Under the pieces are notes generated by a model that saw nothing but the letters and a program-made list of their open reading frames with translations, did not search any database and was not told the DNA's origin. A program made the translations under genes and the position numbers. 47,608 nucleotides of DNA from an uncultured bacterium (GTDB taxonomy: Bacteria > Bacillota > Clostridia > Lachnospirales > Lachnospiraceae): positions 1-47,608 of the forward strand of contig CAMSTY010000024.1 in the NCBI GenBank assembly GCA_947063875.1, read 5' to 3'. Shown piece by piece: positions 3,283 to 21,678 of the stretch (position 1 is its first letter; each line of letters opens with the position of its first letter).

Positions 3283-3292
3283 ATAATCACTC

Positions 3293-3568
3293 CTATTGAT
3301 CTACTTTTTTATCCGGCCTTCTGTCTGGGGATGCTTCCTGCAATGCGTTTTGTATCTGCTGATCCCATGTTTGCCGCGTTTCTCCATACATCCAGCAGCA
3401 GGTTCTTCCATTCCCTCGTCCCCTTCCTTCCCGGCCTACTATCAGTATATGTCCTATTTTTTGTTTGGTTCGTCCCAGAATGTACGGGAATCGTGCCTGA
3501 AAATGTGTTTTGCACCAGTGAAATCTTCCTGTCAGAGCAATATCCCTTACAAGAGGAGGGATACTCAA
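3293..3568 (-). CDS. small ORF directly upstream of the collagen-like gene
   Basis: This is an open frame of up to 91 codons from a TTG. It ends with TAG at 3293-3295, inside the ribosome-binding region of the collagen-like gene, so the two could be one transcript. The C-terminal half has protein-like character ([20 protein letters not shown], then [20 protein letters not shown]) with aromatic and charged residues. The start is unclear: TTG at 3568 lacks a good Shine-Dalgarno, and the next Met is near the end. I do not recognise a family. It may be a partner of the surface protein or a chance frame. Confidence 0.35.
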
Positions 3569-3673
3569 AAAACTGTCAGGAGCATTGCGGACATTATGAA
3601 TTGCTTATTGCGATATGGAGCGGATGGAGCCTGTTTTTTGTTAGCTGATTTATGGAAATCATGGATAATCGGT

Positions 3674-3735
3674 TTAGAGTATGTTTGAAAATTCATTCCC
3701 GCTGTCTGCACGCCCCGCTTTGCGGTACACCGTAG
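3674..3735. repeat. dispersed 62-bp repeat, copy A
   Basis: This segment aligns without gaps to 39428-39489 over 62 bases, about 46 identical by hand count. Conserved ends are TTAGAG..TGTTTGAAAATT and GGTACACCGTAG. The middle varies. Both copies lie between genes. It may belong to a dispersed intergenic element family of this genome. Confidence 0.55.
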
Positions 3736-3766
3736 CGCAAGAATACAGGTAAGAAAATAGAGGAGG

Positions 3767-3796
3767 AAAAGGGGTTGTTTATTTCCCGGCAACCCT
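3767..3796 (-). terminator. weak hairpin after the HTH pseudogene
   Basis: A stem of GGGGTTG with CAACCCT around a 12-base loop is followed, on the minus strand, by TTTTCC. It lies about 90 bases after the end of the HTH pseudogene and could be its terminator. Confidence 0.35.
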
Positions 3797-3881
3797 CTTG
3801 ACTGCTTTTTAACGAGGTAATCTGTGGGATATTCCATAGCCATGCCTGATACTTGGAATGTTATTTGCATACCGGCAATTT

Positions 3882-4311
3882 TCAGTGTGACATAAGGAAT
3901 ATCCTATAGCAAAGCGTTTCACATACAGAATACAATTCCCCGTCCGTTGTGCTTTCTCCAAATTTGATGGTTTCCTCCTGTAAAAGCTGAAAAGTTCCAG
4001 CTAACTCTGCCACTTTAGGGAGCGTTTTTATCTCCCGATTCTCCATGTCTAATGCAAGTATAAAATTTGATATTTCTTTCTTTTCCATCTGGATTAATCT
4101 CTGGCTTTATTGCATCTTCCTCATTGAGAAGATAGTCCAAAGAGACATGAAACAGTTTGCTCATTCGGACAATTTTTTCGGTTTCCGGATAGCCGTTGCC
4201 ATATTCCCATTTCCTGACTGCCTGTCTTGATGCTCCTAATTGATAAGAGGGTTCTTCTTGCGATAAACCGGCTTCCTTTCTCAGCTTTTGTATTTTTTCT
4301 CCCAATGTCAT
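3882..4311 (-). pseudogene. frameshifted XRE/Cro-type HTH regulator
   Basis: The N-terminal frame (4311 down to 4015) encodes a helix-turn-helix of the XRE family: MTLGEKIQKLRKEAGLSQEE, then SRQAV..WE and GYPETEKIVRMSKLFHVSLDYLL. The sense then passes to the neighbouring frame near 4088 (EKKEISNFILALDMENREIK) and continues to a stop at 3882. Together they would make a protein of about 140 residues. The usual ELA and SKWENG positions read EPS and RKWEYG, so substitutions have also gathered in the HTH. A GGGGG Shine-Dalgarno remains before the ATG. A frameshifted, decaying gene is the simplest reading; a sequencing error or a short functional N-terminal form cannot be excluded. Confidence 0.6.
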
Positions 4312-4606: not shown

Positions 4607-4662
4607 AGAATCTTAATGCGAATGTAATAAGTGCGAAAATGTAAATGAGGAGGATTCTGCAA

Positions 4663-4710: not shown

Positions 4711-4837
4711 GTGTTTAGTAAAGGAAAAATCCGCCTGGTAGTTTGAGCAAAAAACAACAAAAACGAATCAATGGATTTTCAAATGCAAAATAAAATGTGA
4801 AGATAAATCAAAGGATTTGCAGAATTACGAATTTGCC

Positions 4838-4947: not shown

Positions 4948-4976
4948 TTGACATATGCACAATAAAAGCGTACAAT
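4948..4976 (+). promoter_or_regulatory. sigma-A promoter of the giant secreted protein
   Basis: TTGACA (4948-4953), 17 bases, TACAAT (4971-4976): near-consensus. Transcription should start near 4983, giving a leader of about 46 bases with ATGAGGAGG before the ATG at 5029. Confidence 0.8.
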
Positions 4977-4978: not shown

Positions 4979-4998
4979 TGTAAACAAATACTTTTACA
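4979..4998 (+). promoter_or_regulatory. inverted repeat over the transcription start (possible operator)
   Basis: TGTAAA, 8 bases, TTTACA. Its place over +1 suits a repressor site. The half-sites resemble the TTTAC/GTAAA arms of the palindrome at 17136-17158 next to the locus LacI gene, so joint control is possible but unproven. Confidence 0.4.
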
Positions 4999-5028
4999 AA
5001 TGCAAACTAAATATGAGGAGGAAATAGA

Positions 5029-8000
5029 ATGTTTCGCAGAATAATGTCGTTATTTATGATCCCTGTACTTCTTTTGTTTTCTGTTTGTAACGTGACGATT
5101 GTACATGCGGAGGAAACAGACAATCATACAAATGACGGCGTATCGTTTAAAGGATATGAATTTCATTCCTATGAGCCGGGAGAGAACGATGCAAAATTAT
5201 ATGAAGAAGCAGGAGCGCTTATTTATGAAATCGACAAAATATCACTGGAGGACTGGCAGAACAAGCTTTTCATAGAATCCGGCATAGCATTTGAAAAGGG
5301 AAAGCAATACACGGTGGATTTTACCATCTCAGCCAGCAAAGAAACCTATTTTTCCTTCTTTGTAAACCAGATAGGCGCCTGGAACCCGGTGATATCCGAG
5401 TCTCTGAATATCGGGGATTATGTGGAAAGCTATAGCTATACAACTCCCGTGATCGGCGACGATATGTCGATGGAGGTGTTGTTTCAGTTTGGCGGCGGCG
5501 GAAACCAGGCGCCTCTGAACATCAGCCTTTTGGATTTTTCTGTTCATGAAGCCACGGCAGAGGAAGAAGCACAGCATACATCCTTTTACAGAGTCGCCGA
5601 TTTTTGCGGTCTTTGCGTATCGGCGGAAGGAGCTGACGGCAGCCGCCTGTACATAGAGGGAGACGGACTTGTTTTTGAAACAGAAGAAGACGGAAAGGTA
5701 AAGATCGAGGATTTAAGCTTCAAAAAAGGCTGTGATTATGAGATCACATACACGGTTCGGGCCGACAAAAATGCGCAGGTGGCCTGTTCTGTGGACCCCA
5801 GAGGCGGTTACTTTGCCCCGGGCCCATTCGTTTCACTCTCAGGAGGGCCTCAAACCATAAGCCGCAGAACCGGAATACAGCAGGCGGACCAACAGATGGA
5901 GATTACCTTTGACATCAACAAAACGGGGAACGGGGAGCCTGCAAAGATTATTTTCGATCAGATTCTGATAAAGGAGATAAAAGAGGGGCAGGAAGAGGCT
6001 TTTCGGAATGCATGGGTGGTTGACGGCTATCGGCTGAATCATGACGAGTCCGGCGGCGCGGTCGCTGATTTTGACATGGACGAAGAGGGGAACGTCGTAT
6101 ATCGAATCGAGAAAATCGGCGAATATGACTGGAACAATAAAGTTATGATAGACCGGGATGTTACCTTTGTGAAAGATAATGCCTACAAGGTGGAGATTTC
6201 CCTGGAAACGGATAAGGAAATGAATATATTTTTCGGCGTGAACCCGAAAAACAAATGGGAACCGAAGATTTCAGAGACTCTGGCGCTGAGAGAGGGTGTG
6301 AACGAATTTTCTTTTGCAACAGATACACAGGCATATGATGAGGATATGGAAGTGCTGTTCCAGTTTGGAGGATTCGGCAATACGGCGCCCTGCAACATTA
6401 AAATAAAAGCAATATCCATTGAACCTGCATCCGCAGATGATATAGCAGCAGTCGCGGCGAAAAGGGCGGCAGTCATGGAGCCGGCCATGGTTAAGGAGTA
6501 CAGCTTTTCCAAATTAGACAACTATAAATTCAAGGGTTTTGTAATGAACGATTCAAGCGGTTCGGAATTGTACCTGGATGAAGGGGTGCTTGTGTATGAT
6601 ATCAAAACTTTTGGAGTGAATCAGTTAGTCAAAAAAGATTTATGGCTCAGTAATAATACAAAGTACAACATTGAGATGAAGGTGTCTGCCAGCCGGCCCA
6701 TGAACCTGGAATGTTTTGTCAGCGGAAGGAATACCCAGAAGGACAGGGATAAGTCTAAAGTGACAGTCGGCAAAAGCGTGGAAGTGATCAAAGCTGAGTT
6801 CAGAACGGGGAATAGCACGGAAGATCAGGGGCGTATCGTATTTGATTTAAGCAACAATGAAGGAAGCGGGAAATTCTATGTACATTCGGTGGTTGTAAAA
6901 GCAGTTGAGGAAGGAATCGAGGAGACTTTTCCCATGGATCTCTTTGAGGTTGTAACAGATTCTAAATCGAACGCGACAACAACATTTGTAAACGGCGGTC
7001 TGATATATAACGTAAAAAGATTTGGCGGAAATCCCTGGGAGAATAAAATATCCGTTAACAATTTAACGGAATTTAAAAGAAATAAAAACTATATTGTGGA
7101 TTTTGATATAAGCAGCACAAAAAGCATTGTCTTTACCTGTGTCTTGCGGAATCTTGAAAGAAATGAGGATGAGGATGAATGGGAATATTTCTGGGAGAGA
7201 AACCATGTCATAGGCGGAAAAAAACAGCATTTCCGGTTCAGTTTTAAAGCCTTGGAGGATAATCCTCTCAATGAAATGGTTTTTGAGTTGGGCGGACAGG
7301 GGAACACGAAAAAAGGCCCTGCCAGTATTTTTATCAGTGATATAAAAATAACGGAATGTACCGATTACAGAAAAGAAACCATTCAGTTTCCAGGCGCGGA
7401 GGGAGTATTCTCCTACGAGCATGAAGGTTCCCTGGCAAGCGGCAGCTTATATCAGGAGGACGGCGTTCTCATATATGAAATTGGCAGGGAAGGGGTAGCT
7501 GACTGGCATAACCAGCTCATATTCAATCAAGGGGTTAAGTTTGAAAAGGGGTATCGCTACAGAATCGATGTGACGGCATCTGCCAGCAAGGGCGCCAATG
7601 TAAAATTTGCGGTTGTCTCCCAGGTAGACTGGAAAGAGAAGGTCAAAAAATACGGCATCCTTTTAAACGAAGAATCAACCCTGTCTTTTGAGACGGATAC
7701 CGTGCAGCATGATGACGAGGATGTGGAGTTTAGTTTAAGCTTCGGCGGCATGTACAATCGTAGCAATACCACCGTAAGAATAAGTGATATTAAAATCTAC
7801 AAGCTTAGTCCGGGAATCCCTTATACCGGCACTTCCGTCGATGACTATGACATGGAAATTGAGTATGAAAACTCGGATTTTTATGAGAGTGCTGATTTTA
7901 AAGGCTACACATTTCATTCCACGCTCATTGACGACGCGGATGCTTCCCTTTATGAAGAAAATGGTATCCTTCATTATGTGATAAGAGAAGTGGGGGAAGA

Positions 8001-10365
8001 GACGTATCATAACAAATTATCGATTAATAATGGGATGACAGCGAAGGCGGACAAAAACTATAAAATTGAGATTACTGCACGTGCAGAGGAACCTTTAAGG
8101 TTTTTCTTTGCCATGAACGGGACTGACGGTGAGTGGAATCCGCTGGTTGCAGAAAATATCGATCTTTCAGAGGATTATAATACCTATACATTTATGACAA
8201 ATTCCTCGGATGCAGACAAGGAGGTGGAACTTATTTTTGAATTTGGTGCAAACGGCAACACAGCGCCAAATCATGTTTCCATTAAGGATTTTAAAATAAG
8301 CGAAATGAACCCGATTGCTGATGAAGGTACGGTGTCATTTAAAGAAAGCGATTTTTGGCATGAAGAAACCGGGGAAATTGCAAAAGGTATCTTATACACA
8401 AATGACAGCGGCAATATGGTATACTATGCAAAAAGGCTGGGAAATATCCCGGAAGATAATATGGTATTGACGACCAGGACATTGAATGGAGGGAAAGATA
8501 ACGAGATTAAGGTAACTTTAAAACCGCAAAAGGGACTTCTTGTCAACATAAACGCGATTGATGTATCAACCGGGGAGGAATTAGGGTCCGCGACGGAGTG
8601 GGCAGGGGATAATGAAACAAAAGAAATCACTCTCCGGATTTCTGCGGAGGACAGGGAGCGCGATATGAAACTGTCAGTCATGTTCGGGCAAGCGGAATAT
8701 GCGGATGCGAGAGAAGATAACAGAATTGAGTTTGTGGATTTTTCGATAACAGAATCCAATCCGGTTGCTGATGAAGGTACAGTAACCTTTGGTGGTTATG
8801 AGTTCAGGCATGAGGAATTCGGCGATGTGGCAAAGGGCAGCCTGTACATGGATGATGACGGGAACATGGTATATTATGCAAAAAAGCTTGGCAGCGCGGA
8901 CTGGCATAACAAGGTATCCACGGTCATAGAAGATGTGGAAGCCGGTGCGGAATACACGTTGACAGTGGAGGTGACGCCGGAAAAGGGACTGGATATGGTA
9001 ACGACGGTTCCGGATGCAAAAAATGCGGAAAATAACGGTGACGCCTGGTACAGGAACTGGCTGGGCCCTGGCACTTCCACGAAGCTGTCTTACAGGATTA
9101 TTGCCCAGAGCAATACTCTGGAAATATTCTTCCAGGTGGGGCAGGAGAACTATGCAGAAGACAGAGAAAATAATCACATTGTATTTCAAGCCATCTCGCT
9201 ATCCAAAAATGAAGGTGATGTTGATGCCGGTACGGTAACCTTCGGCGGTTATGAGTACACCCATGCAGAGGAACCTGGAGCAGAGGGCAGCCTGTATATG
9301 GATGATGACGGGAACATGGTATATTATGCAAAAAAGCTTGGCAGAGTGGACTGGCATAACAAGGTATCCACGGTCATAGAAGATGTGGAAGCCGGTGCGG
9401 AATACACGTTGACAGTGGAGGTGACGCCGGAAAAGGGACTGGATATGGTAACGACGGTCCCGGATGCAAAAAATGCGGAAAATAATGGGGATGCCTGGTA
9501 CAGGAACTGGCTGGCTCCTGGCACTTCCACGAAGCTGTCTTACAGGATTACCGCCCAGAGCAATACTCTGGAAATATTCTTCCAGGTGGGGCAGGAGAAC
9601 TTTGTAGAAGACAGAGAAAATAATCACATTGTATTTCAAACCATTTCATTAGAAAAAAATGAGGACGCCATCATAAGCCTGCTTGACTTAGATATACTGG
9701 AAGAAGATCCGGAAGAAGAGATTCTGCCGGATGAGGAAATCTCGGATGAATATGGGAGCGTGGATGCAGAGACAGAAAAAGAGCAGGAACAGGGGGAGGA
9801 AGAAGAACAAGGCGGGACGGGCGGCGTTGTACCGGGCCTTAATCAGGAGGCGGACGTGACGGTATCGATTGGGAAAAAGCCGGAGAAGCCGGAAGACAAT
9901 GGCGCAGATACCGAAGAGAAACAAGAAGGAACGGAAACGAACGGTTTTGCGCCAGGCCTGGGCGCAGATACCGAAGAGAAAGAGGAAAAAGAGGATAGCG
10001 GAGAGGAAGAACCAGAGGGGGTTGAGGACCAAGACGGGGAAACCGAGCCGAAACAGGAAGGAACGGAAACGGACGGTTCTGTATCCGGCTCCAATGAAAA
10101 AGAAGATACCGGAGGGAATGAACCGGAGAGTTCCGAAAATCAGGGCGAAGAAACCGAAACGAAACAGGAAGGAGCCGGGGCGGACAGTTCTGCACCCGAC
10201 TCCGATGAAAAAGAGGATACCGGAGGGAATGAATCGGAGGGTTCCGAAAATCAGGGCGAAGAAACCGAAACGGAACAGGAAGGAACCGGAATGGACAGCG
10301 CAGCCACACCGGACGATGGGAAAAAGGGCGAGGAAAGGGGGGACTTTGAAGATGAAGATAATTAA
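5029..10365 (+). CDS. giant secreted protein with ten tandem carbohydrate-binding-like modules and acidic tail
   Basis: The product has 1778 residues. Residues 1-27 are a signal peptide ending in VHA-EE. Ten modules of about 130-165 residues follow, starting near residues 37, 186, 329, 489, 634, 783, 952, 1097, 1247 and 1398. Most share GxLxYEI, a DWxNK/WHNK motif, an FEKGKxYxVxFxxSA strand and a closing EVLFQFGGxGN...ISDIKI strand. This pattern fits CBM4/9-like beta-sandwich domains. Modules 9 and 10 are almost identical. Residues 1545-1778 are Glu/Asp/Gly-rich, with a 37-residue repeat. No catalytic domain, LPXTG, SLH or dockerin is visible, so how it stays at the surface is unclear. The stop overlaps the next gene, a GH32-like enzyme, by 14 bases. 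Glycan capture is inferred. Confidence 0.85.
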   Translation: MFRRIMSLFMIPVLLLFSVCNVTIVHAEETDNHTNDGVSFKGYEFHSYEPGENDAKLYEEAGALIYEIDKISLEDWQNKLFIESGIAFEKGKQYTVDFTISASKETYFSFFVNQIGAWNPVISESLNIGDYVESYSYTTPVIGDDMSMEVLFQFGGGGNQAPLNISLLDFSVHEATAEEEAQHTSFYRVADFCGLCVSAEGADGSRLYIEGDGLVFETEEDGKVKIEDLSFKKGCDYEITYTVRADKNAQVACSVDPRGGYFAPGPFVSLSGGPQTISRRTGIQQADQQMEITFDINKTGNGEPAKIIFDQILIKEIKEGQEEAFRNAWVVDGYRLNHDESGGAVADFDMDEEGNVVYRIEKIGEYDWNNKVMIDRDVTFVKDNAYKVEISLETDKEMNIFFGVNPKNKWEPKISETLALREGVNEFSFATDTQAYDEDMEVLFQFGGFGNTAPCNIKIKAISIEPASADDIAAVAAKRAAVMEPAMVKEYSFSKLDNYKFKGFVMNDSSGSELYLDEGVLVYDIKTFGVNQLVKKDLWLSNNTKYNIEMKVSASRPMNLECFVSGRNTQKDRDKSKVTVGKSVEVIKAEFRTGNSTEDQGRIVFDLSNNEGSGKFYVHSVVVKAVEEGIEETFPMDLFEVVTDSKSNATTTFVNGGLIYNVKRFGGNPWENKISVNNLTEFKRNKNYIVDFDISSTKSIVFTCVLRNLERNEDEDEWEYFWERNHVIGGKKQHFRFSFKALEDNPLNEMVFELGGQGNTKKGPASIFISDIKITECTDYRKETIQFPGAEGVFSYEHEGSLASGSLYQEDGVLIYEIGREGVADWHNQLIFNQGVKFEKGYRYRIDVTASASKGANVKFAVVSQVDWKEKVKKYGILLNEESTLSFETDTVQHDDEDVEFSLSFGGMYNRSNTTVRISDIKIYKLSPGIPYTGTSVDDYDMEIEYENSDFYESADFKGYTFHSTLIDDADASLYEENGILHYVIREVGEETYHNKLSINNGMTAKADKNYKIEITARAEEPLRFFFAMNGTDGEWNPLVAENIDLSEDYNTYTFMTNSSDADKEVELIFEFGANGNTAPNHVSIKDFKISEMNPIADEGTVSFKESDFWHEETGEIAKGILYTNDSGNMVYYAKRLGNIPEDNMVLTTRTLNGGKDNEIKVTLKPQKGLLVNINAIDVSTGEELGSATEWAGDNETKEITLRISAEDRERDMKLSVMFGQAEYADAREDNRIEFVDFSITESNPVADEGTVTFGGYEFRHEEFGDVAKGSLYMDDDGNMVYYAKKLGSADWHNKVSTVIEDVEAGAEYTLTVEVTPEKGLDMVTTVPDAKNAENNGDAWYRNWLGPGTSTKLSYRIIAQSNTLEIFFQVGQENYAEDRENNHIVFQAISLSKNEGDVDAGTVTFGGYEYTHAEEPGAEGSLYMDDDGNMVYYAKKLGRVDWHNKVSTVIEDVEAGAEYTLTVEVTPEKGLDMVTTVPDAKNAENNGDAWYRNWLAPGTSTKLSYRITAQSNTLEIFFQVGQENFVEDRENNHIVFQTISLEKNEDAIISLLDLDILEEDPEEEILPDEEISDEYGSVDAETEKEQEQGEEEEQGGTGGVVPGLNQEADVTVSIGKKPEKPEDNGADTEEKQEGTETNGFAPGLGADTEEKEEKEDSGEEEPEGVEDQDGETEPKQEGTETDGSVSGSNEKEDTGGNEPESSENQGEETETKQEGAGADSSAPDSDEKEDTGGNESEGSENQGEETETEQEGTGMDSAATPDDGKKGEERGDFEDEDN
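8769..9668 (+). repeat. recent in-frame tandem duplication (modules 9 and 10, 450-bp period)
   Basis: The DNA of module 9 (from about 8769) is repeated almost unchanged from about 9222. For example, AAAAAGCTTG at 8881 recurs at 9331, and the stretch after it is nearly identical for more than 250 bases. The earlier modules are far more diverged, so this copy is recent. Confidence 0.8.
10066..10290 (+). repeat. 111-bp repeats encoding the acidic tail
   Basis: Two copies of a 37-codon unit (GTETDG... EKEDTGGNE... SENQGEETETKQE) are nearly identical, with degenerate copies before and after. They lie inside the C-terminal tail of the giant protein. Confidence 0.7.
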
Positions 10366-11770
10366 AAAGGCCGGGAGCACCCTGGCGATGGCGCTGATAT
10401 GTTCACAGTGCGTGTACGGAGCCTGGAATCCGCAGTTTTTTCCTGTTTCACAAGATGGTTTTATCGGCGACACTATGCCGTTTGCCGATGGGGATGAAAT
10501 GCACATATTTTATTTGAACGACCAGAGAAGCGGTACCATCGGCTTTCACCCATGGAACAAAATATCAACAGCTGACTTTGCAAATTTTAATGATATCGGT
10601 GAAGTGCTTCCTGTGGTGCACAATGAGTATGACCGGGATTTGGCGCTTGGCACAGGCTCCGTTATAAAGAAGGATGATGTATACTATGCGTTTTATACGG
10701 CCCATAACGGAAACATTGAACCCAAGGAAGTGATACGGATAGCAACATCAACAGATATAAACGCCAATGGCTGGGAGAAATCCAAGGAATTTATGTTAAA
10801 TCCTCCCAAGGGCTATGAACTGAACGATTTCAGGGACCCTTATGTATTGTTTAATGAAGCTGAGGGTAGATATTGGATGCTTTTGACGGCGAGAAAGGAT
10901 AATCATGGTGTAATTCTATATATGAAATCCGACGACCTGCTGAATTGGGCAGATCCGCAAATCCTGTACAGGAATGAAACAAACCGAAGCAACATGGAAT
11001 GTCCGACACTCATTCAATATAACGATTATTGGTATTTGTCTTATTCCGAGCAGGAGCCTAACAGAATCGTTAAATATTTAGTGTCGGACAACCCCGAAGG
11101 GCCATTTAATAGTTTTGACATCAATTATTTTGACGGTGCCGGCTTTTACGCAGGACGCATGGAAAAATTCAGGGGAAAGCTTTATGTCATCGGCTGGACG
11201 CCGTCAAAAGCCAATGGCGTGGACAATGGTTCAATTGACTGGGCAGGAAATCTTGTAGCACACGGATTGCGTCAGGGAGCAAACGGGCAGCTGTTTACCG
11301 TACCGATTCCGGAAAGGAGCGGAAGCTTTGCCAATCAAAAAGGGGTGGGAAGTTTCCATTTGCCTTTTGCAGGCTATCAGTATAAGACTATGGAACCCCT
11401 GAAAGAGCGGATGATACTAAAAGGCAAAATGAAATACGACGCGGACTCAGACGGATATTTCGGTTTCGGATTTCATAATGCCGGCGCGGAAAATAATATT
11501 AATGTCGTATTTGATATAAATAAAAACCAGATACGGTTTTACAGCTGCCCGTTAAAAGAAGCAAAAATTCCGGAAAGCAAAGTGGCGTTTGCATTGAAAC
11601 AACATGCGGAGATTGATTTTGAACTGGTAATGGATGACTCGGTTTTCGTTCTGTATGTAAATGATGAGATTGCTCTCACAGCGAGAAATTATAACGGCAT
11701 CCAAAAAAGCTGGTCGGTTTTTTCAAATGACTGCAAATTAAGCGGGGAGAATTTTACAATCTTGTATTAG
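10352..11770 (+). CDS. secreted GH32-like (beta-fructosidase superfamily) glycoside hydrolase
   Basis: The product has 472 residues. A signal peptide (MKIIKKAGSTLAMALICSQC) is followed by a five-bladed propeller of the GH32/GH43 superfamily. The three acidic motifs are in order: GDTMPF (Asp40, likely nucleophile), NDFRDP (Asp162, transition-state stabiliser) and MECP (Glu216, likely acid/base). HPWNKIST and TGSVI around residues 67-105 also fit GH32-type enzymes. The C-terminal third (from about 350) resembles the GH32 beta-sandwich. The ATG at 10352 overlaps the end of the giant protein by 14 bases and follows GAGGAAAGGGGGG, so translation is coupled. The longer frame upstream is a shadow of the acidic tail. 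Fructan or fructoside hydrolysis outside the cell is likely, but exact substrate and mode are unknown. Confidence 0.8.
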   Translation: MKIIKKAGSTLAMALICSQCVYGAWNPQFFPVSQDGFIGDTMPFADGDEMHIFYLNDQRSGTIGFHPWNKISTADFANFNDIGEVLPVVHNEYDRDLALGTGSVIKKDDVYYAFYTAHNGNIEPKEVIRIATSTDINANGWEKSKEFMLNPPKGYELNDFRDPYVLFNEAEGRYWMLLTARKDNHGVILYMKSDDLLNWADPQILYRNETNRSNMECPTLIQYNDYWYLSYSEQEPNRIVKYLVSDNPEGPFNSFDINYFDGAGFYAGRMEKFRGKLYVIGWTPSKANGVDNGSIDWAGNLVAHGLRQGANGQLFTVPIPERSGSFANQKGVGSFHLPFAGYQYKTMEPLKERMILKGKMKYDADSDGYFGFGFHNAGAENNINVVFDINKNQIRFYSCPLKEAKIPESKVAFALKQHAEIDFELVMDDSVFVLYVNDEIALTARNYNGIQKSWSVFSNDCKLSGENFTILY

Positions 11771-11781
11771 CGGGAACAAAG

Positions 11782-11853
11782 GGCGGCTTTGATTGGATGA
11801 TCAAAGCCGCCGAATAATTTGGGGTGGCAGCCTGCAAGGCGCCACCCTGTTTT
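11782..11853 (+). terminator. bidirectional terminator region with two hairpins
   Basis: The first hairpin (11782-11811) has a 12-bp stem, GGCGGCTTTGAT/ATCAAAGCCGCC. The second (11822-11847) has GGGTGGC/GCCACCC followed by TGTTTT. It lies between two convergent genes and likely stops both. Confidence 0.75.
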
Positions 11854-11876
11854 GCGATATATTTAGCAGATTCGCA

Positions 11877-13361
11877 TTAAACCAAATCATATTTTACAAT
11901 ATCCATATTCACAAGCCCATCGCAGAAGAAGGAGATGCCATCTGCCTTTAGAGGAGTCTGGATGGAGACGGACAGTACCTGTTCACCGTCATTTACAAAC
12001 AGCTCGGCGCTGAAGCGGTCTAAGATCAGCCGCAGGCGGATTCGGCCGCCACAGTGTCTCACAAGGCTTCTGCGCTGATGGATGAAAGCCCTTCGGGAGC
12101 CGGAGAATTTGCGGTCAATTTTAAGGAGTGACTCATGGGGCCGGAAGCTGACGGCTGTACGATGCGTGGCATCCTGGGCAAAACGCACCGCGAATTTCTG
12201 ATATACCGGGTTGTCATCCACAGGGCGAATGCTTAGTTCCATGTCTATTGTTCTGCCGCTGACGCCGCTTAGCTGCAGGATGTCTGTGAAGGTAAGATCC
12301 ATATAGCGCACTTCATTTTTACGCAGGGTTTCCAGCTCCCGAACCGGCTTTTGGAAGAGGCGCCCGTCTTTTACGGAAAGTTCCCGGGGCAGGCTCATCT
12401 GCCCAAACCACGGGGCACGGACTGTAACCGGGAGGCAGGCGTCCCAGTTCTGCAGCCAGCCAATCATGATTCTTCTTCCGTCGGCTGTGAGCAGGGTCTG
12501 GGGGGCGTAAAAGTCAATGCCATAGTCAATGGCCTGGTTGCGTTCCTCGACAAATTTTTTGTTTTCTTCGTCATAGGATCCGATGATGCAGACGGTTCCG
12601 TTTCCGTTGTGGTACTCAAATCCCTGAGGCAGCATATCCTGGGGGCTTACCAGCAAAAGCTGCTTTCCGTCCAGTTCAAAGAAATCCGGACATTCCCACA
12701 TTTTGCCGTAACGTCCCCGGTTGGAACACAGGATCTCCTGGAATCTCCATTCAAATCCGTCCGGACTCTTAAACAGTAATATCTGCCCGCTTCCATCGGC
12801 GGGGCGGCTTCCGATTACTGCATAATAGTCCCCGTCCTTTCCCTGCCATATTTTCGGGTCCCGGAAGTCATAGCGGGAACTGCCCTCCGGAAGATCGACT
12901 TCGGTCAATACCGGATTTTTTTCATATTTCTCATAATTGATGCCGTCACCGGCGGCAATACACTGCCTTTGCACCTCCCGGATGCTTCCGTCCTTCTGGA
13001 TTTCCTTTGCCACACCAGTATACATAAGCAGATGCCTTCCGTCAGGGAGCACGGTGGCGCTCCCTGAGAAACAGCCGTCCTTATCATAGGCTTCATCCGG
13101 CGCTAAGGAGGCCGGAAGATAGGTCCAGTGGAGCAGGTCAGAACTCACGGCATGCCCCCAGTGCATCAGGCCCCAACGGGAATCATAGGGATAATATTGG
13201 TAAAACAGGTGGTACTGCCCATTGTAGAAGGAAAAACCGTTGGGATCATTCATCCAGCCCACCCGGGGACTCAGGTGAAATTCCGGGCGGTCTTCTTTTT
13301 TGATATTCTTTTCATATGTCTCTTCATATTTTCGTGCTTTTTGTAAAAAAGGACTTGTCAT
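11877..13361 (-). CDS. GH32 beta-fructosidase (sucrose-6-phosphate hydrolase type), cytoplasmic
   Basis: The enzyme has 494 residues, the normal length for bacterial GH32 sucrose/fructan hydrolases. Motifs are WMNDPNG at residues 36-42 (Asp39 nucleophile), FSGSA at 98-102, FRDP at 166-169 and ECP at 223-225 (Glu223 acid/base). The C-terminal beta-sandwich (from about 340) ends in SFFCDGLVNMDIVKYDLV. It has no signal peptide, so it acts in the cytosol on sucrose or imported fructo-oligosaccharides, releasing fructose. AGGAGG precedes the ATG. It is the last gene of the operon permease, permease, binding protein, GH32. Because uptake here is by an ABC transporter and not a PTS, an unphosphorylated substrate is more likely than sucrose 6-phosphate. 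Confidence 0.9.
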   Translation of the reverse strand: MTSPFLQKARKYEETYEKNIKKEDRPEFHLSPRVGWMNDPNGFSFYNGQYHLFYQYYPYDSRWGLMHWGHAVSSDLLHWTYLPASLAPDEAYDKDGCFSGSATVLPDGRHLLMYTGVAKEIQKDGSIREVQRQCIAAGDGINYEKYEKNPVLTEVDLPEGSSRYDFRDPKIWQGKDGDYYAVIGSRPADGSGQILLFKSPDGFEWRFQEILCSNRGRYGKMWECPDFFELDGKQLLLVSPQDMLPQGFEYHNGNGTVCIIGSYDEENKKFVEERNQAIDYGIDFYAPQTLLTADGRRIMIGWLQNWDACLPVTVRAPWFGQMSLPRELSVKDGRLFQKPVRELETLRKNEVRYMDLTFTDILQLSGVSGRTIDMELSIRPVDDNPVYQKFAVRFAQDATHRTAVSFRPHESLLKIDRKFSGSRRAFIHQRRSLVRHCGGRIRLRLILDRFSAELFVNDGEQVLSVSIQTPLKADGISFFCDGLVNMDIVKYDLV

Positions 13362-13428
13362 GATATACCTCCTGAAAGTTTTACTTTGAAAATTCCATCG
13401 CTGCAGGCGATTGGAATCAGGGATGCCA

Positions 13429-13458
13429 ACGCCGCCAGACTTTCATCTGGCGGTGGCG
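13429..13458. other. GC-rich hairpin between binding protein and GH32 genes
   Basis: ACGCCGCCAGA pairs with TCTGGCGGTGGCGT around a 6-base loop. In the direction of the operon (minus) there is no T run. It is more likely an mRNA-stabilising or partial-termination structure that keeps the binding-protein message abundant. Confidence 0.5.
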
Positions 13459-13484
13459 TGTTTTCTGTCGGGTGCCTGAAGGCT

Positions 13485-15152
13485 TTACTCATAAAAAGCG
13501 TCAAAATACTTCTGGAAAATAGAAAGATACTCTTCCAACCCGTAAGCATCCAGCTTATTTTTGTATTCGTTCCAATCATTTTCCGTATATCCGTTCATGA
13601 TCCATCTGGAACGGCATTCGTTGATATACTGGGAGATGTCATGGGTCAGGACGGAGAGCCTGTCCGTATCCTCCCGGCTCATAAATACGTTTGGATATAC
13701 ATATTTGTTGTTCATATCCGGCGTATAGACTTCCCGTATCCAGTCCAGGCGGTACTGGGCGTCAGCCGGGCAGGTAACATACTTGCCGTAATACTCGTCA
13801 AGTACGGCCAGGGGGCCGCCGACGGATTCTGCTTCTCTGACCTCCACCGGGGAAGCGTCTCCCAGTGGAGCATGCTTTAACATAGGCTCTCCTTCTTCAT
13901 TGGCGCCCATCTCAAAGATATCAAATTCATCCTCTTCCCCGTAGGTTCCCCAGTTGTTCTGAGGAGACTGGAGGGGAGCATACATCTGGTCAAGCCATGC
14001 GCACACCAGAGCCGGTTCCCTGGCAACGGCGGTGACAACGCAGCGCCCTCTGATATATCCGCTGGTGAAGGAGCCGTTTTCAGGGGTGATGTTTCTTGTG
14101 TCCGCAGTCAGAGCCGGAAGGGGAACCCAGTCGGTGTTGTTGTCAATATTGGCCACATCCCAGCTGAAGCAGACGCCGTAACGTCCGGACTTTCCCTTGG
14201 CCACATAAGTGGACCACTCCTGGGTGAAGGCCTCCGGATCGATGAGGCCCTCCTCATACAGTTTGTGAAGCCAGGCGATTCCGTCCTTAAATCCCTGCTG
14301 GGTCGCCGTGCAGATGACTTCCCCTGCGTCCGTGACCGCAATATGCCTGCCCTGGTCACAGTCGCCGTAGCCGTCCCCGAAGCCGTTGATCAAAAGGGCA
14401 GGGTCCTGGCTTCCGTCATTGACAATGCAGGACATGGGGATAATGCTTCCCTCAATGCCAAACTGTGCCTGAAGTTCGGGGGCATGTTCCTTAAAGGCAA
14501 GCAGGGTCTGTTCAAATTCATCGGTGGTCCCGGGAATTTCCAGCCCCAAAAAGTCCAGCCATTTTTTATTGATAAAACTCATCTCGCTGACGGTCTGAAT
14601 TGCCGTTTTCCCGGAGCCAAGCTGCTCAATCCACGGAAGCGTCCAGATATGGCCGTTGATGTCCGTGCTCATTTTTTTGTATTCCGGATATTTTTCAAAA
14701 ACGGATTTTAAATTGGGCATATAGGTGTCAATATACTCCTCCAAAGGGATAATGGCCCCATAGTTTGCATACCGGAGAATATCGTTGTCACTGAAATCAC
14801 CGCTGAACACAAAGTCTGTCAGAAGATTGGGGTTTGCCATATTGAGGGCGATTTTGTCGCCCCACTGATCGGACTGAATGGCCATCCAGTCAATCTCCAC
14901 GTTGGTCGCCTCCTGAAGCCTTTTGAAGATGGTCCGGTTGTTGGGGTTGGGCTCCGTGCTGGGAGGATAACTGATCATTCCGGTGAGAGTCTTTTTTTCC
15001 GCCAGGGGAAACTGTAGTTCTTTCGGATCGACCACCTGCATTTCCTCGCCGGTATTGAGAGAGGAGACGCTACGCCCGCATGCGGCCAGGGAGAGGGCCG
15101 TTCCCGCCGCCAGTACCAATACAACTCCCCGTTTGATTGATTTGTTTTTCAT
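13485..15152 (-). CDS. sugar ABC transporter extracellular binding lipoprotein (CUT1)
   Basis: The product has 555 residues. The N-terminus is a lipoprotein signal with lipobox LAAC (Cys25 by the start used here). Large size and motifs such as the PPSTEPNPNNRTIFKRLQEATNV region place it with the LipO/YtcQ group of family 1 binding proteins. It would sit on the membrane and hand oligosaccharide to the two permeases encoded just upstream. The start at 15152 has AAAGGAGC at correct spacing; an ATG 8 codons earlier would overlap that site. The operon with the GH32 enzyme points to fructo-oligosaccharides, which is inference. Confidence 0.88.
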   Translation of the reverse strand: MKNKSIKRGVVLVLAAGTALSLAACGRSVSSLNTGEEMQVVDPKELQFPLAEKKTLTGMISYPPSTEPNPNNRTIFKRLQEATNVEIDWMAIQSDQWGDKIALNMANPNLLTDFVFSGDFSDNDILRYANYGAIIPLEEYIDTYMPNLKSVFEKYPEYKKMSTDINGHIWTLPWIEQLGSGKTAIQTVSEMSFINKKWLDFLGLEIPGTTDEFEQTLLAFKEHAPELQAQFGIEGSIIPMSCIVNDGSQDPALLINGFGDGYGDCDQGRHIAVTDAGEVICTATQQGFKDGIAWLHKLYEEGLIDPEAFTQEWSTYVAKGKSGRYGVCFSWDVANIDNNTDWVPLPALTADTRNITPENGSFTSGYIRGRCVVTAVAREPALVCAWLDQMYAPLQSPQNNWGTYGEEDEFDIFEMGANEEGEPMLKHAPLGDASPVEVREAESVGGPLAVLDEYYGKYVTCPADAQYRLDWIREVYTPDMNNKYVYPNVFMSREDTDRLSVLTHDISQYINECRSRWIMNGYTENDWNEYKNKLDAYGLEEYLSIFQKYFDAFYE

Positions 15153-15175
15153 GTCCTTGCTCCTTTTTTCGTTCA

Positions 15176-16072
15176 TCAGCCTTTTACCGAACCTGCCATG
15201 ATGCCGCTGTCAAAATATTTCTGGAAGAACGGATACATCACCAAAAGAGGAAGGCTGGAGATAATAATGGTGGCATATTTTAAAAGTTCTGCAAGCTGGG
15301 CCCGCTGTGCCGTACTCTGCATATCGGAAATCATGCCGGATTCCGGTTGATTCTGTATAAGGATGGAACGAAGCACCAGCTGCAGCGGCTGTTTCGCGGA
15401 ATCATTGAGATAAATCATGGCATCAAAGTAGCTGTTCCACATGGCTACGAACTGCCACAAGGACAGCACCGCGATAATGGGTGTACATACCGGCAGCAAT
15501 ATTTTAAAGAAATAGGTGATTTCGTTGGCGCCGTCCACATCCGCCGCCTCCCGGAGTTCTGTGGGAATTCCCCGGTAATAGGTTCTTGCAATCGTCATAT
15601 TCCACACACTAAAGGCGCCGGGAAGAATAATGGCCCACATGCTGTCAAGGAGCCCCAGATTGCCGATGAGCAGGTAGGTAGGGATCAGGCCGCCGCCGAA
15701 GAACATGGTGATCATGAAAATTACATTAAAGAACCCTCTCCCCTTAAAGTCGGGCCTTGACATGGGATATGCGGCCAGCAGGGTGACGCCTACGGATACG
15801 ATGGTATATACCACGGAGTAAACCACGGCATTTTTAAAGCCGATCCAGATCTGGGCGTTGGAGATGACCCGCTCATATGCCGTCAGAGTCCATTTGCTGA
15901 AATCAAAGGTAATCCCTTTGTTCTGCAGGGTGATCGGGTCCATAAAGGAGGCGGCCACAATATAGATCATAGGAACGATAATTGCAAGTACAAACAGGCC
16001 GATGAGAATATATCCCACCGTAAGCAGTATTTTATCCTGAGTGCCGTAGCTGGAAAATTTTTTAGTTTTCAT
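15176..16072 (-). CDS. carbohydrate ABC transporter permease, LplC-like
   Basis: The protein has 298 residues and about six membrane helices. It carries the EAA loop ELREAADVDGANEITYFFKI that contacts the ATPase. N-terminal GYILIGLFVLAIIVPMIYIVAASF is the first helix. It pairs with the LplB-like permease upstream, 10 bases away. The start at 16072 has AGGAGG with good spacing, while the ATG 27 bases earlier lies inside the previous gene. No ATPase gene is in the operon, as usual for CUT1 systems that share one MsmX-type ATPase. Confidence 0.9.
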   Translation of the reverse strand: MKTKKFSSYGTQDKILLTVGYILIGLFVLAIIVPMIYIVAASFMDPITLQNKGITFDFSKWTLTAYERVISNAQIWIGFKNAVVYSVVYTIVSVGVTLLAAYPMSRPDFKGRGFFNVIFMITMFFGGGLIPTYLLIGNLGLLDSMWAIILPGAFSVWNMTIARTYYRGIPTELREAADVDGANEITYFFKILLPVCTPIIAVLSLWQFVAMWNSYFDAMIYLNDSAKQPLQLVLRSILIQNQPESGMISDMQSTAQRAQLAELLKYATIIISSLPLLVMYPFFQKYFDSGIMAGSVKG

Positions 16073-16082
16073 TGGAAACCTC

Positions 16083-17033
16083 CTATAATCCCTGGCCATC
16101 GTTCATCTTTGCGACAATCTTGTTCACGCTTAAAAGGAGAATCACATTGATGACTGTATTGAACAGGCCGACTGCTGTCGAGAAACTAAAGTTACCACCA
16201 ACAAGACCTTGTTTGTACACGTATGTGGAGATAATCTCTGAACTGGCAAGGTTTAAGTCTGTCTGTAGGGCATATGCTTTTTCAAAGCCGATGCTCATGA
16301 TGTTTCCTGCCTGAAGGATAAACTGGATAATCACAATGTCCTTAATGGCAGGCCACTCAACTACCCGGATCTGCTGAAGGATATTCGCTCCGTCAAGCTC
16401 GGCGGCTTCCCTCAGATCCTGGCTTGCGTTTGCCAGGGCGGCGGTGTACATAATGGATGCCCAGCCTGCTCCCTGCCAGATGCCGCTGGCGATGTAGATG
16501 GTCCTCCATGCTCCCGGCATGGCCATAAAATTAATCTGGCTGCCCAACAAAAGATTTACCGGGCCGGTTACGGAAAGGAAAATCCTTATGATACCGCAGA
16601 GGACGATGACGGAAATAAAATTGGGCAGGTAAAGTGCCAGCTGGATCTTTTTCTTGATTCCCGTTCTCTGAATCCGGTTCAGAAGAAACGCCAGGAGGAT
16701 GGGCACCGGGAATCCCCACAAAAGGCCGAAGATGCTAAGCTTTAAGGTATTGGCCAGATAGGACATAAAGTCCGGAGAGGAAAGGAATCTCTCAAAATAC
16801 TGAAACCCTACCCATTCGCTGCCCCAAATGCCCCGAAACGGGTTGTAATCCTGAAAAGCGATGAGAATGCCGCCCATGGGTATGTACTTGAAAATTAAAG
16901 TCAGCGCCAATGCCGGCATGAGGAAGATAACATACAATTCCCAGTGCTGTTTTACATACACCAGTGTATCATGAACCCTCCCTGATTTGCTGCCCTGTTT
17001 CTCTGCGGAAACGGTTGAAGAATTGGAAGCCAT
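16083..17033 (-). CDS. carbohydrate ABC transporter permease, LplB-like
   Basis: The protein has 316 residues with six predicted membrane helices. It has the typical early motif MGGILIAFQDYNPFRGIWGS of the LplB/YtcP group and an EAA loop DLREAAELDGANILQQIRVV. It is the first gene of the four-gene operon and is preceded by GGGGGA before the ATG. A promoter on the minus strand lies at 17183-17211, with an operator-like palindrome between it and the gene. Confidence 0.9.
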   Translation of the reverse strand: MASNSSTVSAEKQGSKSGRVHDTLVYVKQHWELYVIFLMPALALTLIFKYIPMGGILIAFQDYNPFRGIWGSEWVGFQYFERFLSSPDFMSYLANTLKLSIFGLLWGFPVPILLAFLLNRIQRTGIKKKIQLALYLPNFISVIVLCGIIRIFLSVTGPVNLLLGSQINFMAMPGAWRTIYIASGIWQGAGWASIMYTAALANASQDLREAAELDGANILQQIRVVEWPAIKDIVIIQFILQAGNIMSIGFEKAYALQTDLNLASSEIISTYVYKQGLVGGNFSFSTAVGLFNTVINVILLLSVNKIVAKMNDGQGL

Positions 17034-17135
17034 TGGTTCCCCCTTTCTGACATGCCTGTTTTGTTTTATTTTACGCTGCCGACTCTATTGTACACTTTTT
17101 TGCGCCGGTATTTTACAGTATCTGTTTGATGTACA

Positions 17136-17158
17136 TTTACGATTTGCGCAAACGTAAA
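17136..17158. promoter_or_regulatory. LacI-type operator palindrome
   Basis: TTTACG, one extra A, TTTGC, then GCAAACGTAAA: a 23-base inverted repeat with one inserted base and a central GC step, typical for LacI-family sites. It sits about 20-40 bases after the predicted start of the minus-strand transporter operon, where a bound repressor would block transcription. The LacI gene is adjacent. Confidence 0.6.
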
Positions 17159-17182
17159 ATATCAGTCATGCGTCTTGTATAT

Positions 17183-17211
17183 AACATACCATTATTTTTA
17201 CATTTAGTCAA
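17183..17211 (-). promoter_or_regulatory. promoter of the transporter/GH32 operon
   Basis: On the minus strand: TTGACT (17211-17206), 17 bases, TATGTT (17188-17183). The leader to the first permease would be about 140 bases and contains the palindrome at 17136-17158. Confidence 0.55.
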
Positions 17212-17297
17212 TAGCATGTTTTACATTTAAACAATTTTTTCTATCATAATTTTGCATTTTTGATTATAATGGATATAAAATCTTTACAATTTTACAT

Positions 17298-17326
17298 TTG
17301 ACATATTTTATATTGTGCGGTATGAT
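17298..17326 (+). promoter_or_regulatory. promoter of the LacI gene
   Basis: TTGACA (17298-17303), 17 bases, TATGAT (17321-17326). It is followed at 17343 by AAAGGAGAAG and the ATG at 17356. Confidence 0.75.
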
Positions 17327-17355
17327 ACATATGTGAGATTGGAAAGGAGAAGATT

Positions 17356-18423
17356 ATGGCTTCTAAAGTTACCATTCAGGATATTGCGGATGCCCTGGGG
17401 GTTTCACGTAATACGGTCTCAAAAGCAATCAATAATACAGGAGTACTGGCGGCTGCCACCAGGGATAAAGTTCTGAAAAAAGCACAGGAGATGGGATACA
17501 AGCAGTTTTCCTATTTGAATATTGCGGAAGCTGCCGGATTGCCCACTGTCCCAGAGGTAGAAGAAAAACATGAGATTGCACTGTTTCTGGGAAGCTTTGT
17601 AGGCGGTTCCCATTTTGCATCAACCATGCTTGACAAATTTCAGAAGGAGTTGTCGCAGCTGGGTTACAGCCTTATTATGTACCGGGTGACCGAGGAGGAG
17701 ATGGAGGAACTGCGGCTTCCTGTTTCATTCAGGCCGGAACAGATTGCGGGCATCGCCTGTGTTGAGGTCTTTGACCATGAGTACTGCCGGATGCTTTGCA
17801 GACTGAATCTTCCTCTGCTGTTTGTGGATTCTCCTGCCGATGGTTTTGAGGCTCCCCTGGAGGCGGACCTGCTTTATATGGACAATCGAACGGAAATCTA
17901 TCGTTTTGTCAAAGAGATGGTTCAGAGAGGAAAGAAGAGAATCGGCTTTGCAGGCCCCTATATGCATTGCCAGTCTTTTTATGAACGGTACATGAACTAC
18001 CGCAACGCCATGTACCTCATGGGACTTCCCTGCCCCGAGGAATATTGTCTCATTGAGGATAAGCACGGCCCTTCGGGAGGCGGCAGGGAGGATTACCATA
18101 AATATCTGGCCGAACATATCAGCAGGATGGAAAAGCTTCCGGATGTATTCATCTGTGCCAATGACGCGACGGCTGTTGATATGATGCAGGTACTTCATTC
18201 CCTGGATTATTCGATTCCCGGCGATGTGTATTTGTGCGGTTTTGACGACTCGCCGGAATCAAGGGTCGTGGCGCCGCCCCTTACCACGATCCATATCCAC
18301 AGCCAGGATATAGGGCTTTCTGCCGTCCAGCTGCTGATATCGCGGATCAAGGAGCCTTCCTTAAATTACCGGACCGTGTATGTGGAAACCAATTTGATTT
18401 TCAGGGAATCAACGGAGGGTTAA
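17356..18423 (+). CDS. LacI-family transcriptional regulator of the fructan locus
   Basis: The product has 355 residues. Residues 5-25 form the LacI helix-turn-helix (TIQDIADALGVSRNTVSKAI), followed by the hinge helix and a periplasmic-binding-like sensor domain with conserved ANDATAVDMMQVL and GFDDSPES segments. It is divergent from the transporter/GH32 operon, with an operator palindrome in between, so it most likely represses that operon until a sugar ligand binds. It is co-directional with the YesL gene 5 bases downstream. Confidence 0.9.
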   Translation: MASKVTIQDIADALGVSRNTVSKAINNTGVLAAATRDKVLKKAQEMGYKQFSYLNIAEAAGLPTVPEVEEKHEIALFLGSFVGGSHFASTMLDKFQKELSQLGYSLIMYRVTEEEMEELRLPVSFRPEQIAGIACVEVFDHEYCRMLCRLNLPLLFVDSPADGFEAPLEADLLYMDNRTEIYRFVKEMVQRGKKRIGFAGPYMHCQSFYERYMNYRNAMYLMGLPCPEEYCLIEDKHGPSGGGREDYHKYLAEHISRMEKLPDVFICANDATAVDMMQVLHSLDYSIPGDVYLCGFDDSPESRVVAPPLTTIHIHSQDIGLSAVQLLISRIKEPSLNYRTVYVETNLIFRESTEG

Positions 18424-18428
18424 ATCCT

Positions 18429-19055
18429 ATGAAGGGACTTTTGGAGATTGACGGGCCTGTGATGCAGCTGATCACAAAGATCGTGTATGCGGTCTGGCTG
18501 AACATCCTCTGGTTTGTCTGCTGTCTGCCTGTTTTTACCGTGGGCGTGTCCACAACCGCGCTTTTTTACGTGACCTTAAAGATTGCCAAGAATGAGGAGG
18601 GAGCCGTCACCAGGGCGTTTTTCCGCTCTTTTAAGGAGAATTTCCGCCAGGCAACCATAGTCTGGCTGATTCTTCTGGCGGTGGGGGTTCTTCTTGGGAT
18701 CGACGGATACATTTTTTACCATATGAGGTTTGAAAATGTACTGTGGATCTTGGGAACGGCTGTATTTATGGTGGCTGTTGCTGCCTATGCCATTGTATTG
18801 ATGTACATATTTCCCCTCATGGCCAGATTTGACAATACCATATGGGCCATGTTTAAAAACTCCCTGATGATCGGCATGCGGTTTCTTTTGTGTACGGTGC
18901 TGATGGCTTTGATCTATTTTGTTATGGCAGTGGTTGTGATCCGCATTTTCACTCCTGCGGTTATTTTTGGGGAGGGGTTTTGTGCGCTTTTGTGTTCCTA
19001 TCTGCTTTCTTCCATATTGGTTCTTGTGGAAGGAAATATTCCGGATGCGGATTGA
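18429..19055 (+). CDS. YesL family (DUF624) membrane protein
   Basis: The protein has 208 residues and about five hydrophobic helices. It has the DUF624 start LLEIDGPVMQLITKIVYAVWLNILWFVCCLPVFTVG and the TRAFFRSFKENFRQA loop. YesL proteins are found beside CUT1 transporters of the LplB/LplC type in Firmicutes. Their role is not settled, though membrane assistance to oligosaccharide uptake is usually suggested. It starts 5 bases after the LacI stop. Confidence 0.85.
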   Translation: MKGLLEIDGPVMQLITKIVYAVWLNILWFVCCLPVFTVGVSTTALFYVTLKIAKNEEGAVTRAFFRSFKENFRQATIVWLILLAVGVLLGIDGYIFYHMRFENVLWILGTAVFMVAVAAYAIVLMYIFPLMARFDNTIWAMFKNSLMIGMRFLLCTVLMALIYFVMAVVVIRIFTPAVIFGEGFCALLCSYLLSSILVLVEGNIPDAD

Positions 19056-19214
19056 ACGGTGGCAGAAATCCCATTGCGCCAAAAGGCAGCCTTGTGCTAT
19101 ACTATGATAGGAGCGTCAAGGAATCTTTTGCCGTTTCCTGGGGCGTGCAGCTGGCGGAACTGGATTTTCCAACGCGTTCCAGGATGCACCAAGGGAAAGA
19201 GGATAAAGGGAAAC

Positions 19215-21269: not shown

Positions 21270-21632
21270 ATTTGCCGGTTATCGTGAAGCAAGGCTATTG
21301 GAGAAAAGCTTCCCGGAAAAAGGTACGCCATGAAAAGAGCTTTTCGTTACACATGCACAACCTTATGGGCCCGGCATTATGACATTGACGGTGAACAGTA
21401 GGCGCCACCCGCACAGATATCTGGAGAATGTCAGGAGATTTTTGCTTGATGGGGGGATATGATCTGTGAAAGCAGACAAAAGACTTCTGACGAAAGAAGA
21501 TGGAAAAATGTTTGATAAAAATGTATGAAATCTTGTACAATAAAAGATTGTATGTGTATTTTTGCCATATAGAAAAGAAATAAATAAGTAATAGAAAATA
21601 TTACTATCGGTAAAATGACTAATAATAATGGA
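21270..21632. other. intergenic stretch without recognised genes
   Basis: I see no supported ORF, RNA gene or element. The last 150 bases are AT-rich and lead into the LacI promoter. Confidence 0.5.
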
Positions 21633-21661
21633 TTGACATGGCTACAATTGTGTGATATGCT
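21633..21661 (+). promoter_or_regulatory. promoter of the amino-sugar operon
   Basis: TTGACA (21633-21638), 17 bases, TATGCT (21656-21661). An operator palindrome directly follows the -10 box. Confidence 0.75.
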
Positions 21662-21662
21662 A

Positions 21663-21678
21663 TAGAAAACGATTTCTA
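21663..21678 (+). promoter_or_regulatory. LacI-type operator 1 of the amino-sugar operon
   Basis: TAGAAAACGATTTCTA is a near-perfect palindrome centred on CG over the predicted start of transcription. The same motif recurs in reverse at 23527-23542. It likely binds the regulator encoded at 21692, giving autoregulation. Confidence 0.65.

Follow-up and report, generated by a model that had tools for sequence, protein, structure and literature searches.

A secreted ten-module CBM4-type array paired with a BT1760-like GH32 in a candidate fructan locus of Lachnospiraceae, and a second array type beside the same enzyme clade

The stretch of Lachnospiraceae DNA analyzed here (the window: 47,608 nucleotides, contig CAMSTY010000024.1) holds the gene for a giant secreted protein of ten tandem modules, an overlapping gene for a secreted GH32 enzyme, and an importer locus (Table 1). 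The most interesting result is that two types of module array, unrelated by sequence, recur beside one clade of this GH32: the type seen in the window, which resembles CBM4, and another built from modules of ~175 residues. With fairly good confidence, we regard the window's protein as a stand-alone fructan-capture array that partners a levanase-like enzyme and feeds a CUT1-type importer; levan is the likelier target than inulin.

Ten homologous modules span residues 37–1544 of the array protein. All ten were recovered by profiles built without the module under test (for M9 and M10, both of them and the modules of a related locus, L077, were omitted), with E-values from 1.8e-12 (M4) to 5.6e-35 (M1), against a best value of 0.049 among 2,000 shuffled decoys. 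M9 and M10 are 91% identical, and the remaining pairs share 11%–36%. The GH32 gene starts at an ATG at 10352 and the array gene ends at 10365, so that 14 bases are common to both. Ten modules and the identical overlap recur in a separate assembly, that of Bacterium 1XD21-70 (L076), which makes misassembly an improbable origin of the array. An earlier sequence-only reading of this DNA had described the signal peptide, the ten tandem modules, the acidic tail, and the 14-base overlap, all of which are borne out. It had also named two motifs as shared by the modules; WxNK is exact in five (M1, M3, M5, M9, and M10) and not in the other five, and FEKGKxYxV is exact in M1 but in none of the other nine.

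Structure prediction for the window's modules covers M1 alone of the ten. Its AlphaFold2 model is an all-β fold (predicted local distance difference test [pLDDT] 97.1; predicted template modeling [TM] score 0.90), and CBM4 structures head its Foldseek matches in the PDB: the CBM4 of CbhA (3k4z; E-value 4.5e-9, TM score 0.80 by query length), Lam16A (1gui), and CelK (3p6b). Ninth in rank is 7kwc, a surface glycan-binding protein from Bacteroides. M1 is thereby predicted to have a CBM4-type β-sandwich fold, as the sequence-only reading had supposed, and the outcome that it had set against itself, immunoglobulin (Ig) adhesin folds, appears nowhere among the 50 PDB matches listed, leaving an Ig-adhesin interpretation of the modules unsupported by this search. 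Pfam CBM_4_9 matches the whole array protein in seven stretches (1.4e-20; 74.5 bits, cut-off 25.9) and is its only credible match in a database that may not model CBM38 or CBM66. M1 by itself scores 19.9 bits, under that cut-off, and 10 of 17 aligned single modules (ten from the window, seven from relatives) match at E ≤ 0.01. The module profile also matches 1gui at 1.9e-9, its two tryptophan positions aligning with two tryptophans of 1gui that presumably hold sugar. Because the aromatics expected in the cleft are kept in some modules only, perhaps about half of the modules bind, with the others acting as spacers or being degenerate.

The overlapping gene encodes an enzyme that scores 88.6 bits with Pfam GH32N (cut-off 22.1). 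Its best solved relative is 6r3r (1.8e-39), with four further sequences of the same group, and the next unrelated solved entry is 1uyp (1.9e-12). We take 7znr, 8a9y, and 8aa2 to be levan utilisome entries. The catalytic residues of the window's enzyme, D40 (GDTMPF), D162 (RDP), and E216 (ECP), account for the three acidic motifs noted by the sequence-only reading and are invariant in a ten-sequence alignment. 6r3r and 6r3u are BT1760, a Bacteroides endo-levanase (PMC7618045, PMC6560043), and the three residues correspond to the BT1760 catalytic triad of Asp41, Asp169, and Glu221 (PMC6560043). The nucleophile motif is close to the GDPMPF of BT1760; the cytosolic GH32 of the locus has NDPNG instead. 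BT1760 itself is described as having no levan-binding module and as possibly needing the help of neighboring binding proteins (PMC6560043), and such a partner has been shown (PMC7618045).

We used 299 genomes of the same family, the window's own included, to ask how regularly the two genes occur together. The GH32 search matched 34 genomes (E ≤ 1e-20) and the array-protein search eight (E ≤ 1e-5). The module profile is strong (E ≤ 1e-25) in seven, after which scores drop from 94 to 64 bits, and all seven belong to the 34 with this GH32. A gene for a module protein of ~600 residues lies 52–111 bp upstream of the GH32 gene in four loci (L053, L055, L057, and L058), the module gene and the GH32 gene are 2.4 kb apart in L048, and in L056 (8674–11712) GH32 is fused to window-type modules in one open reading frame (ORF) of 1,012 residues. 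Five ~600-residue partners carry a lipobox as judged by eye, the two that were scanned have an Ig-like N-terminal domain, and when the window's modules are compared singly, their matches in these proteins are confined to the final module. Within the family sample, smaller lipoprotein versions are spread over five genera besides the window's, in addition to the one fusion. The ORFs of L053 and L058 also appear to encode an importer, a PfkB-like kinase, and a second, NDPNG-type GH32. A 329-residue protein with apparent wall-binding-type repeats, absent from the window, is encoded between two GH32 genes in L077 (5604–6593).

The second array type emerged from a scan of a genome collection with a GH32 alignment. 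The best 80 of its 564 loci (L076–L155) were kept, with resemblance to the window's GH32 as the criterion; several of their contigs end nearby. Window-type modules are present in four of the 80 (L076, L077, L137, and L142), and the ~175-residue module is present in 47, with 374 matches in total. In 40 loci a protein of 6–12 such modules starts −7 to +66 bases from the end of the GH32 ORF; the remaining second-type loci have shorter or broken ORFs, plus one fusion. The GH32 of Clostridium vincentii (L112:9947–12253) is fused to a single second-type module. The giants occur in Butyrivibrio, Pseudobutyrivibrio, and other genomes (for instance, L084:11394–16694, L109:8572–13116, and L122:11425–19032). 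Twelve of the 40 continue for at least 40 residues past the last module (28 are without such a tail in the sequence at hand), and 11 of these tails are acidic, with net charges of −17 to −38; the twelfth, in L095, is masked. These numbers, together with the lipoprotein versions and the fusion in the family sample, make doubtful the earlier statement that such arrays are unusual in Clostridia.

Neither Pfam nor NCBIfam offers a credible family for the second module. NCBIfam returned nothing for two of the giants, and a PDB sequence search with one second-type protein gave chance matches only; Pfam matches of the module, such as AbrB-like (some above cut-off) and 4PPT_N, covered short pieces and were judged spurious. 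Its predicted model is strand-rich (pLDDT 94.0), with weak fold matches (best E-value 3.9e-5; TM scores by query length of 0.32–0.47 in the 50 matches listed). In profile comparison, kinship between the two array types came out at a probability of 6%, and we therefore treat them as unrelated by sequence; a remote kinship may exist between them, both being predicted β-rich folds. Within the 299 family genomes, strong second-type matches (E < 1e-40) are confined to G049 and G292, with GH32 adjoining in both, and weak ones to G015, G046, and G211, while 348 genomes of the phylum yield one weak match (G403). The available portions of Butyrivibrio genome papers, searched under GH32 and fructan terms, mention no GH32-linked giant.

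Both types fall together when the enzymes are placed in a midpoint-rooted tree of 114 GH32s. One clade of 83 (support 1.0) comprises 47 GH32s with the second type, 11 with the CBM4 type, counting the window's, and 25 that have neither; this last figure is an upper limit, given the way the loci were picked and the nearby contig ends. None of the 31 GH32s outside the clade has either array type beside it; one of their loci, L052, has two second-type matches, which lie in an ORF about 6.8 kb distant. The window's GH32 groups with those of L137 and L142 (support 0.61).

Co-regulation of the array and LacI/importer regions is suggested by a short motif, TTTRCATTT. The window has eight copies where 1.65 are expected in 47.6 kb, and 0 of 100 shuffles reach eight; three copies lie less than 400 bases upstream of the array gene, four in the importer/LacI gap, and one elsewhere. 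Dinucleotide shuffles of each region (5,000) reach its count in 0.18% of cases for the array and 0% for the importer/LacI gap. Relatives have copies in the LacI/permease gap as well (four each in L076 and L077, three each in L043 and L040, and a single one each in L039 and L058); the gap of L042 has none, L053 has no copy at all, and further loci have scattered copies. L076 keeps two of the three sites upstream of its array.

Glycoside hydrolase, importer, and regulator genes lie together in one locus (window 5029–19055), as expected of a Gram-positive polysaccharide utilization locus (gpPUL), and family searches agree with the sequence-only reading on the adjoining CUT1-type importer and cytosolic GH32. 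We propose that the array and secreted GH32 form the extracellular front end of a fructan utilization locus. The 1,778-residue string of ten CBM4-type β-sandwiches, about half of which appear to keep the aromatic pair expected in a glycan cleft, would capture fructan chains by avidity near the cell. The GH32, nearest to BT1760 and presumably co-transcribed with the array, would cut the held chains to oligosaccharides by endo activity; the importer would take these up, and the cytosolic GH32 would finish them. Control of the importer as well as the array–GH32 unit probably lies with the LacI regulator, acting through the TTTRCATTT sites, and the acidic tail may be a spacer or tether. Fructan binding by the array is itself an inference. 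The earlier picture of a fructan capture and trimming machine is partly supported: by the predicted fold of M1, the closeness of the GH32 to BT1760 among solved structures, the genomic coupling, the fusion, the company of an importer and a cytosolic GH32, and the shared motif. Some of the ten modules do not look capable of binding, and endo-cleavage, by homology, describes the enzyme's action better than trimming.

A number of observations weigh against this proposal. Pfam's BT1760-like C-terminal domain scores 24.5 bits in the secreted GH32, under its cut-off of 31.4, and we therefore call the enzyme BT1760-like and do not file it as a member of that group. An anchor was recognized in neither secreted protein of the window, array or GH32, which leaves retention at the cell unexplained (a cysteine, C20, aligns with that of relatives, in surroundings that look unsuited to a lipobox). 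M2, M4, and M8 are without both tryptophans, and M9 and M10 without one. The literature on fructan and CBM4 systems, in the portions available, gave no fructan-binding CBM4: PMC10076258 knows CBM38 and CBM66 as fructan binders, together with a DUF4960 domain of its own, and the CBM4s described in these portions bind glucans and xylan. Coupling is also imperfect. At E ≤ 1e-8 the module profile matches 42 of the 299 genomes, mostly ones without this GH32; G029 is matched by the array protein and is not among the 34 GH32 genomes; and G172, the only genome of the same genus in the sample, has neither gene at the two search thresholds. L077, with a GH32 89% identical to the window's, retains only two modules and the tail, without a signal peptide, and has a lysin-like gene, as read from its sequence, just upstream of this remnant (1361–4100); either the array has been lost or is dispensable there, or this metagenome-assembled genome is wrongly assembled. 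Among the best 80 of the 564 loci, the nearest GH32s beyond the window's kin (L078 on, ~40% identical) mostly have the second array type or none. Finally, TTTRCATTT was derived after the fact by comparing the two regions, which makes its statistics flattering, and in relatives it occurs at the importer only, with L076 the one case of sites shown upstream of GH32 or array genes.

The best-surviving alternative, which we hold to be possible but a good deal less probable than our proposal, is that the GH32 acts as an exo-enzyme or is a fructanase of the inulin type, which would make inulin or fructo-oligosaccharides, rather than levan, the target. The homology to BT1760 is distant, with the C-terminal model under cut-off, and Eub-3, a fructan gpPUL found in Roseburia and Eubacterium rectale, is an inulin locus (PMC5320581). 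However, forms of BT1760 lead the solved relatives by a wide margin, and in Butyrivibrio fibrisolvens 16/4 a protein sharing 31.6% identity with BT1760 has been predicted to be a levanase (PMC5245892); the related loci include a GH32 from this strain (L086), though it may be another protein than the published one. We consider it unlikely that the array binds some other glycan (β-glucan, xylan, the cell's own wall, or a host glycan) and serves only to anchor or display either the enzyme or the cell. The glucan- and xylan-binding habit of the CBM4s in the literature covered, which are also the best fold matches, would suit this idea, and wall binding would solve the problem of retention. Yet a BT1760-like GH32 accompanies the module type in 7/7 strong genomes, and the five lipoprotein relatives would have no need of wall binding. 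A structural adhesin or matrix role for the array, with no part in nutrition and a chance position beside GH32, seems very improbable: the many modules, long acidic tail, and three modules without the expected aromatics would fit it, but M1 has a predicted CBM4 rather than Ig fold, the coupling recurs across genera and through fusion, and TTTRCATTT is common to the array and importer regions.

A fructan-capture array partnering a levanase-like GH32 is most readily compared with the levan utilisome of Bacteroides thetaiotaomicron (BT1760 GH32, BT1761 surface glycan-binding protein, SusCD), which likewise places a GH32 from this group at the surface and combines it with an importer and a distinct binding partner that has no catalytic function (PMC7618045, PMC6560043). 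The window's system differs in being Gram-positive, in having an ABC importer instead of SusCD, in the absence of a recognizable lipobox from its two secreted proteins, and in its partner, a CBM4-type β-sandwich array rather than two Ig-like domains and a globular levan-binding domain. The Eub-3 and Eub-4 fructan loci of E. rectale and Roseburia share GH32, ABC importer, and LacI genes and also have fructokinase; in part of the strains CBM66 is fused to GH32, and the accessible text describes no stand-alone module array (PMC5320581). Blautia producta BpGH16MLG provides tandem CBM4s (four) in a gpPUL (PMC10318527), fused, however, to a β-glucanase and thought to bind β-glucan, whereas the window has ten in a separate protein beside GH32. 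CBM38, CBM66, and DUF4960 are non-catalytic fructan binders tied to GH32 (PMC10076258); the window's M1, in contrast, is predicted to fold as CBM4, with CBM_4_9 the array's credible match. A Gram-positive fructan locus is a known kind (PMC5320581), and the stand-alone giant array is the variant here.

According to PMC10318527, the gpPUL studied there lacks a surface glycan-binding protein, and this role often falls to a CBM on the endo-acting enzyme. That picture would be altered by recurrent pairing of a separate giant array with a levanase-like GH32, and the pairing in relatives suggests a little-described Gram-positive way to catch and eat fructans. We would give even chances to the broader proposition that Gram-positives have at least twice built stand-alone fructan-capture arrays working with BT1760-like levanases, from sequence-unrelated modules (the CBM4 type and the ~175-residue β-sandwich type), that both are new fructan-binding families, and that the arrays are the counterpart of the Bacteroides surface glycan-binding proteins. 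If so, up to two fructan-binding module families would join the three named in PMC10076258. The system would also make it possible to test directly whether longer arrays hold soluble polymers with greater avidity.

Table 1. Features of the array, enzyme, and importer region (window coordinates)
Feature	Position	Strand	Basis
TTTRCATTT site	4637..4645	−	
TTTRCATTT site	4781..4789	−	
Sigma-70-like promoter TTGACA-N17-TACAAT, upstream of array gene	4948..4976	+	read from sequence
TTTRCATTT site	4998..5006	−	
Ten-module secreted array protein, 1778 aa	5029..10365	+	ORF, 1778 codons
Signal peptide, residues 1–28, hydrophobic, end ...IVHA/EE	5029..5112	+	read from sequence
M1 (predicted fold CBM4-like, pLDDT 97.1; W40 and W82)	5137..5556	+	profile, AlphaFold2, Foldseek
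M2 (without both tryptophans W40/W82 of M1; F at second place)	5584..5997	+	leave-one-out profile
M3 (both W)	6010..6438	+	leave-one-out profile
M4 (without both W)	6511..6927	+	leave-one-out profile
M5 (both W)	6928..7368	+	leave-one-out profile
M6 (both W)	7381..7827	+	leave-one-out profile
M7 (Y and W)	7885..8322	+	leave-one-out profile
M8 (without both W)	8332..8772	+	leave-one-out profile
M9 (one W; 91% identical to M10)	8782..9222	+	alignment, leave-one-out profile
M10 (one W)	9235..9660	+	alignment, leave-one-out profile
Acidic tail, residues 1545–1778 (234 residues), net charge −73	9661..10362	+	
Secreted GH32, BT1760-like, 472 aa, 14-base overlap with array gene	10352..11770	+	
Cytosolic GH32, scrB family, 378.7 bits (cut-off 356.4)	11877..13361	−	
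Solute-binding protein, CUT1-type importer; lipobox by sequence reading	13485..15176	−	
Importer permease	15176..16099	−	
Importer permease	16083..17033	−	
Four TTTRCATTT sites (17197, 17220, 17251, 17291), between importer and LacI genes	17197..17299	+	
LacI-family regulator	17356..18423	+	
DUF624 membrane protein (MusI model under its cut-off)	18429..19055	+	

Among the 28 window proteins scanned with Pfam, a part of the ORFs, there is no fructokinase near the array, and two ORFs beside the locus (19059–19790, 243 residues; 21431–23092, 553 residues) have no Pfam match at 0.001. The genome from which the window comes encodes one more NDPNG-type GH32 elsewhere (L162, G000:C16:22000-38000, at 6527–7876), with an ABC importer and regulator-like genes as neighbors by sequence reading. 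On the reverse strand at 943–3282 the window encodes a collagen-repeat protein with a BclA C-terminal domain. Sodium-solute symporter, N-acetylglucosamine 2-epimerase-like, SIS-domain, and amidohydrolase genes at 24391–30642 are perhaps an amino-sugar catabolic set. The region at 31817–46129 has genes for M20 peptidases, a class-V aminotransferase, a coenzyme A (CoA) ligase with a CoA-binding domain, which we take to be FdrA-like, AllG, and an amino-acid kinase, and is perhaps concerned with ureide or purine breakdown.

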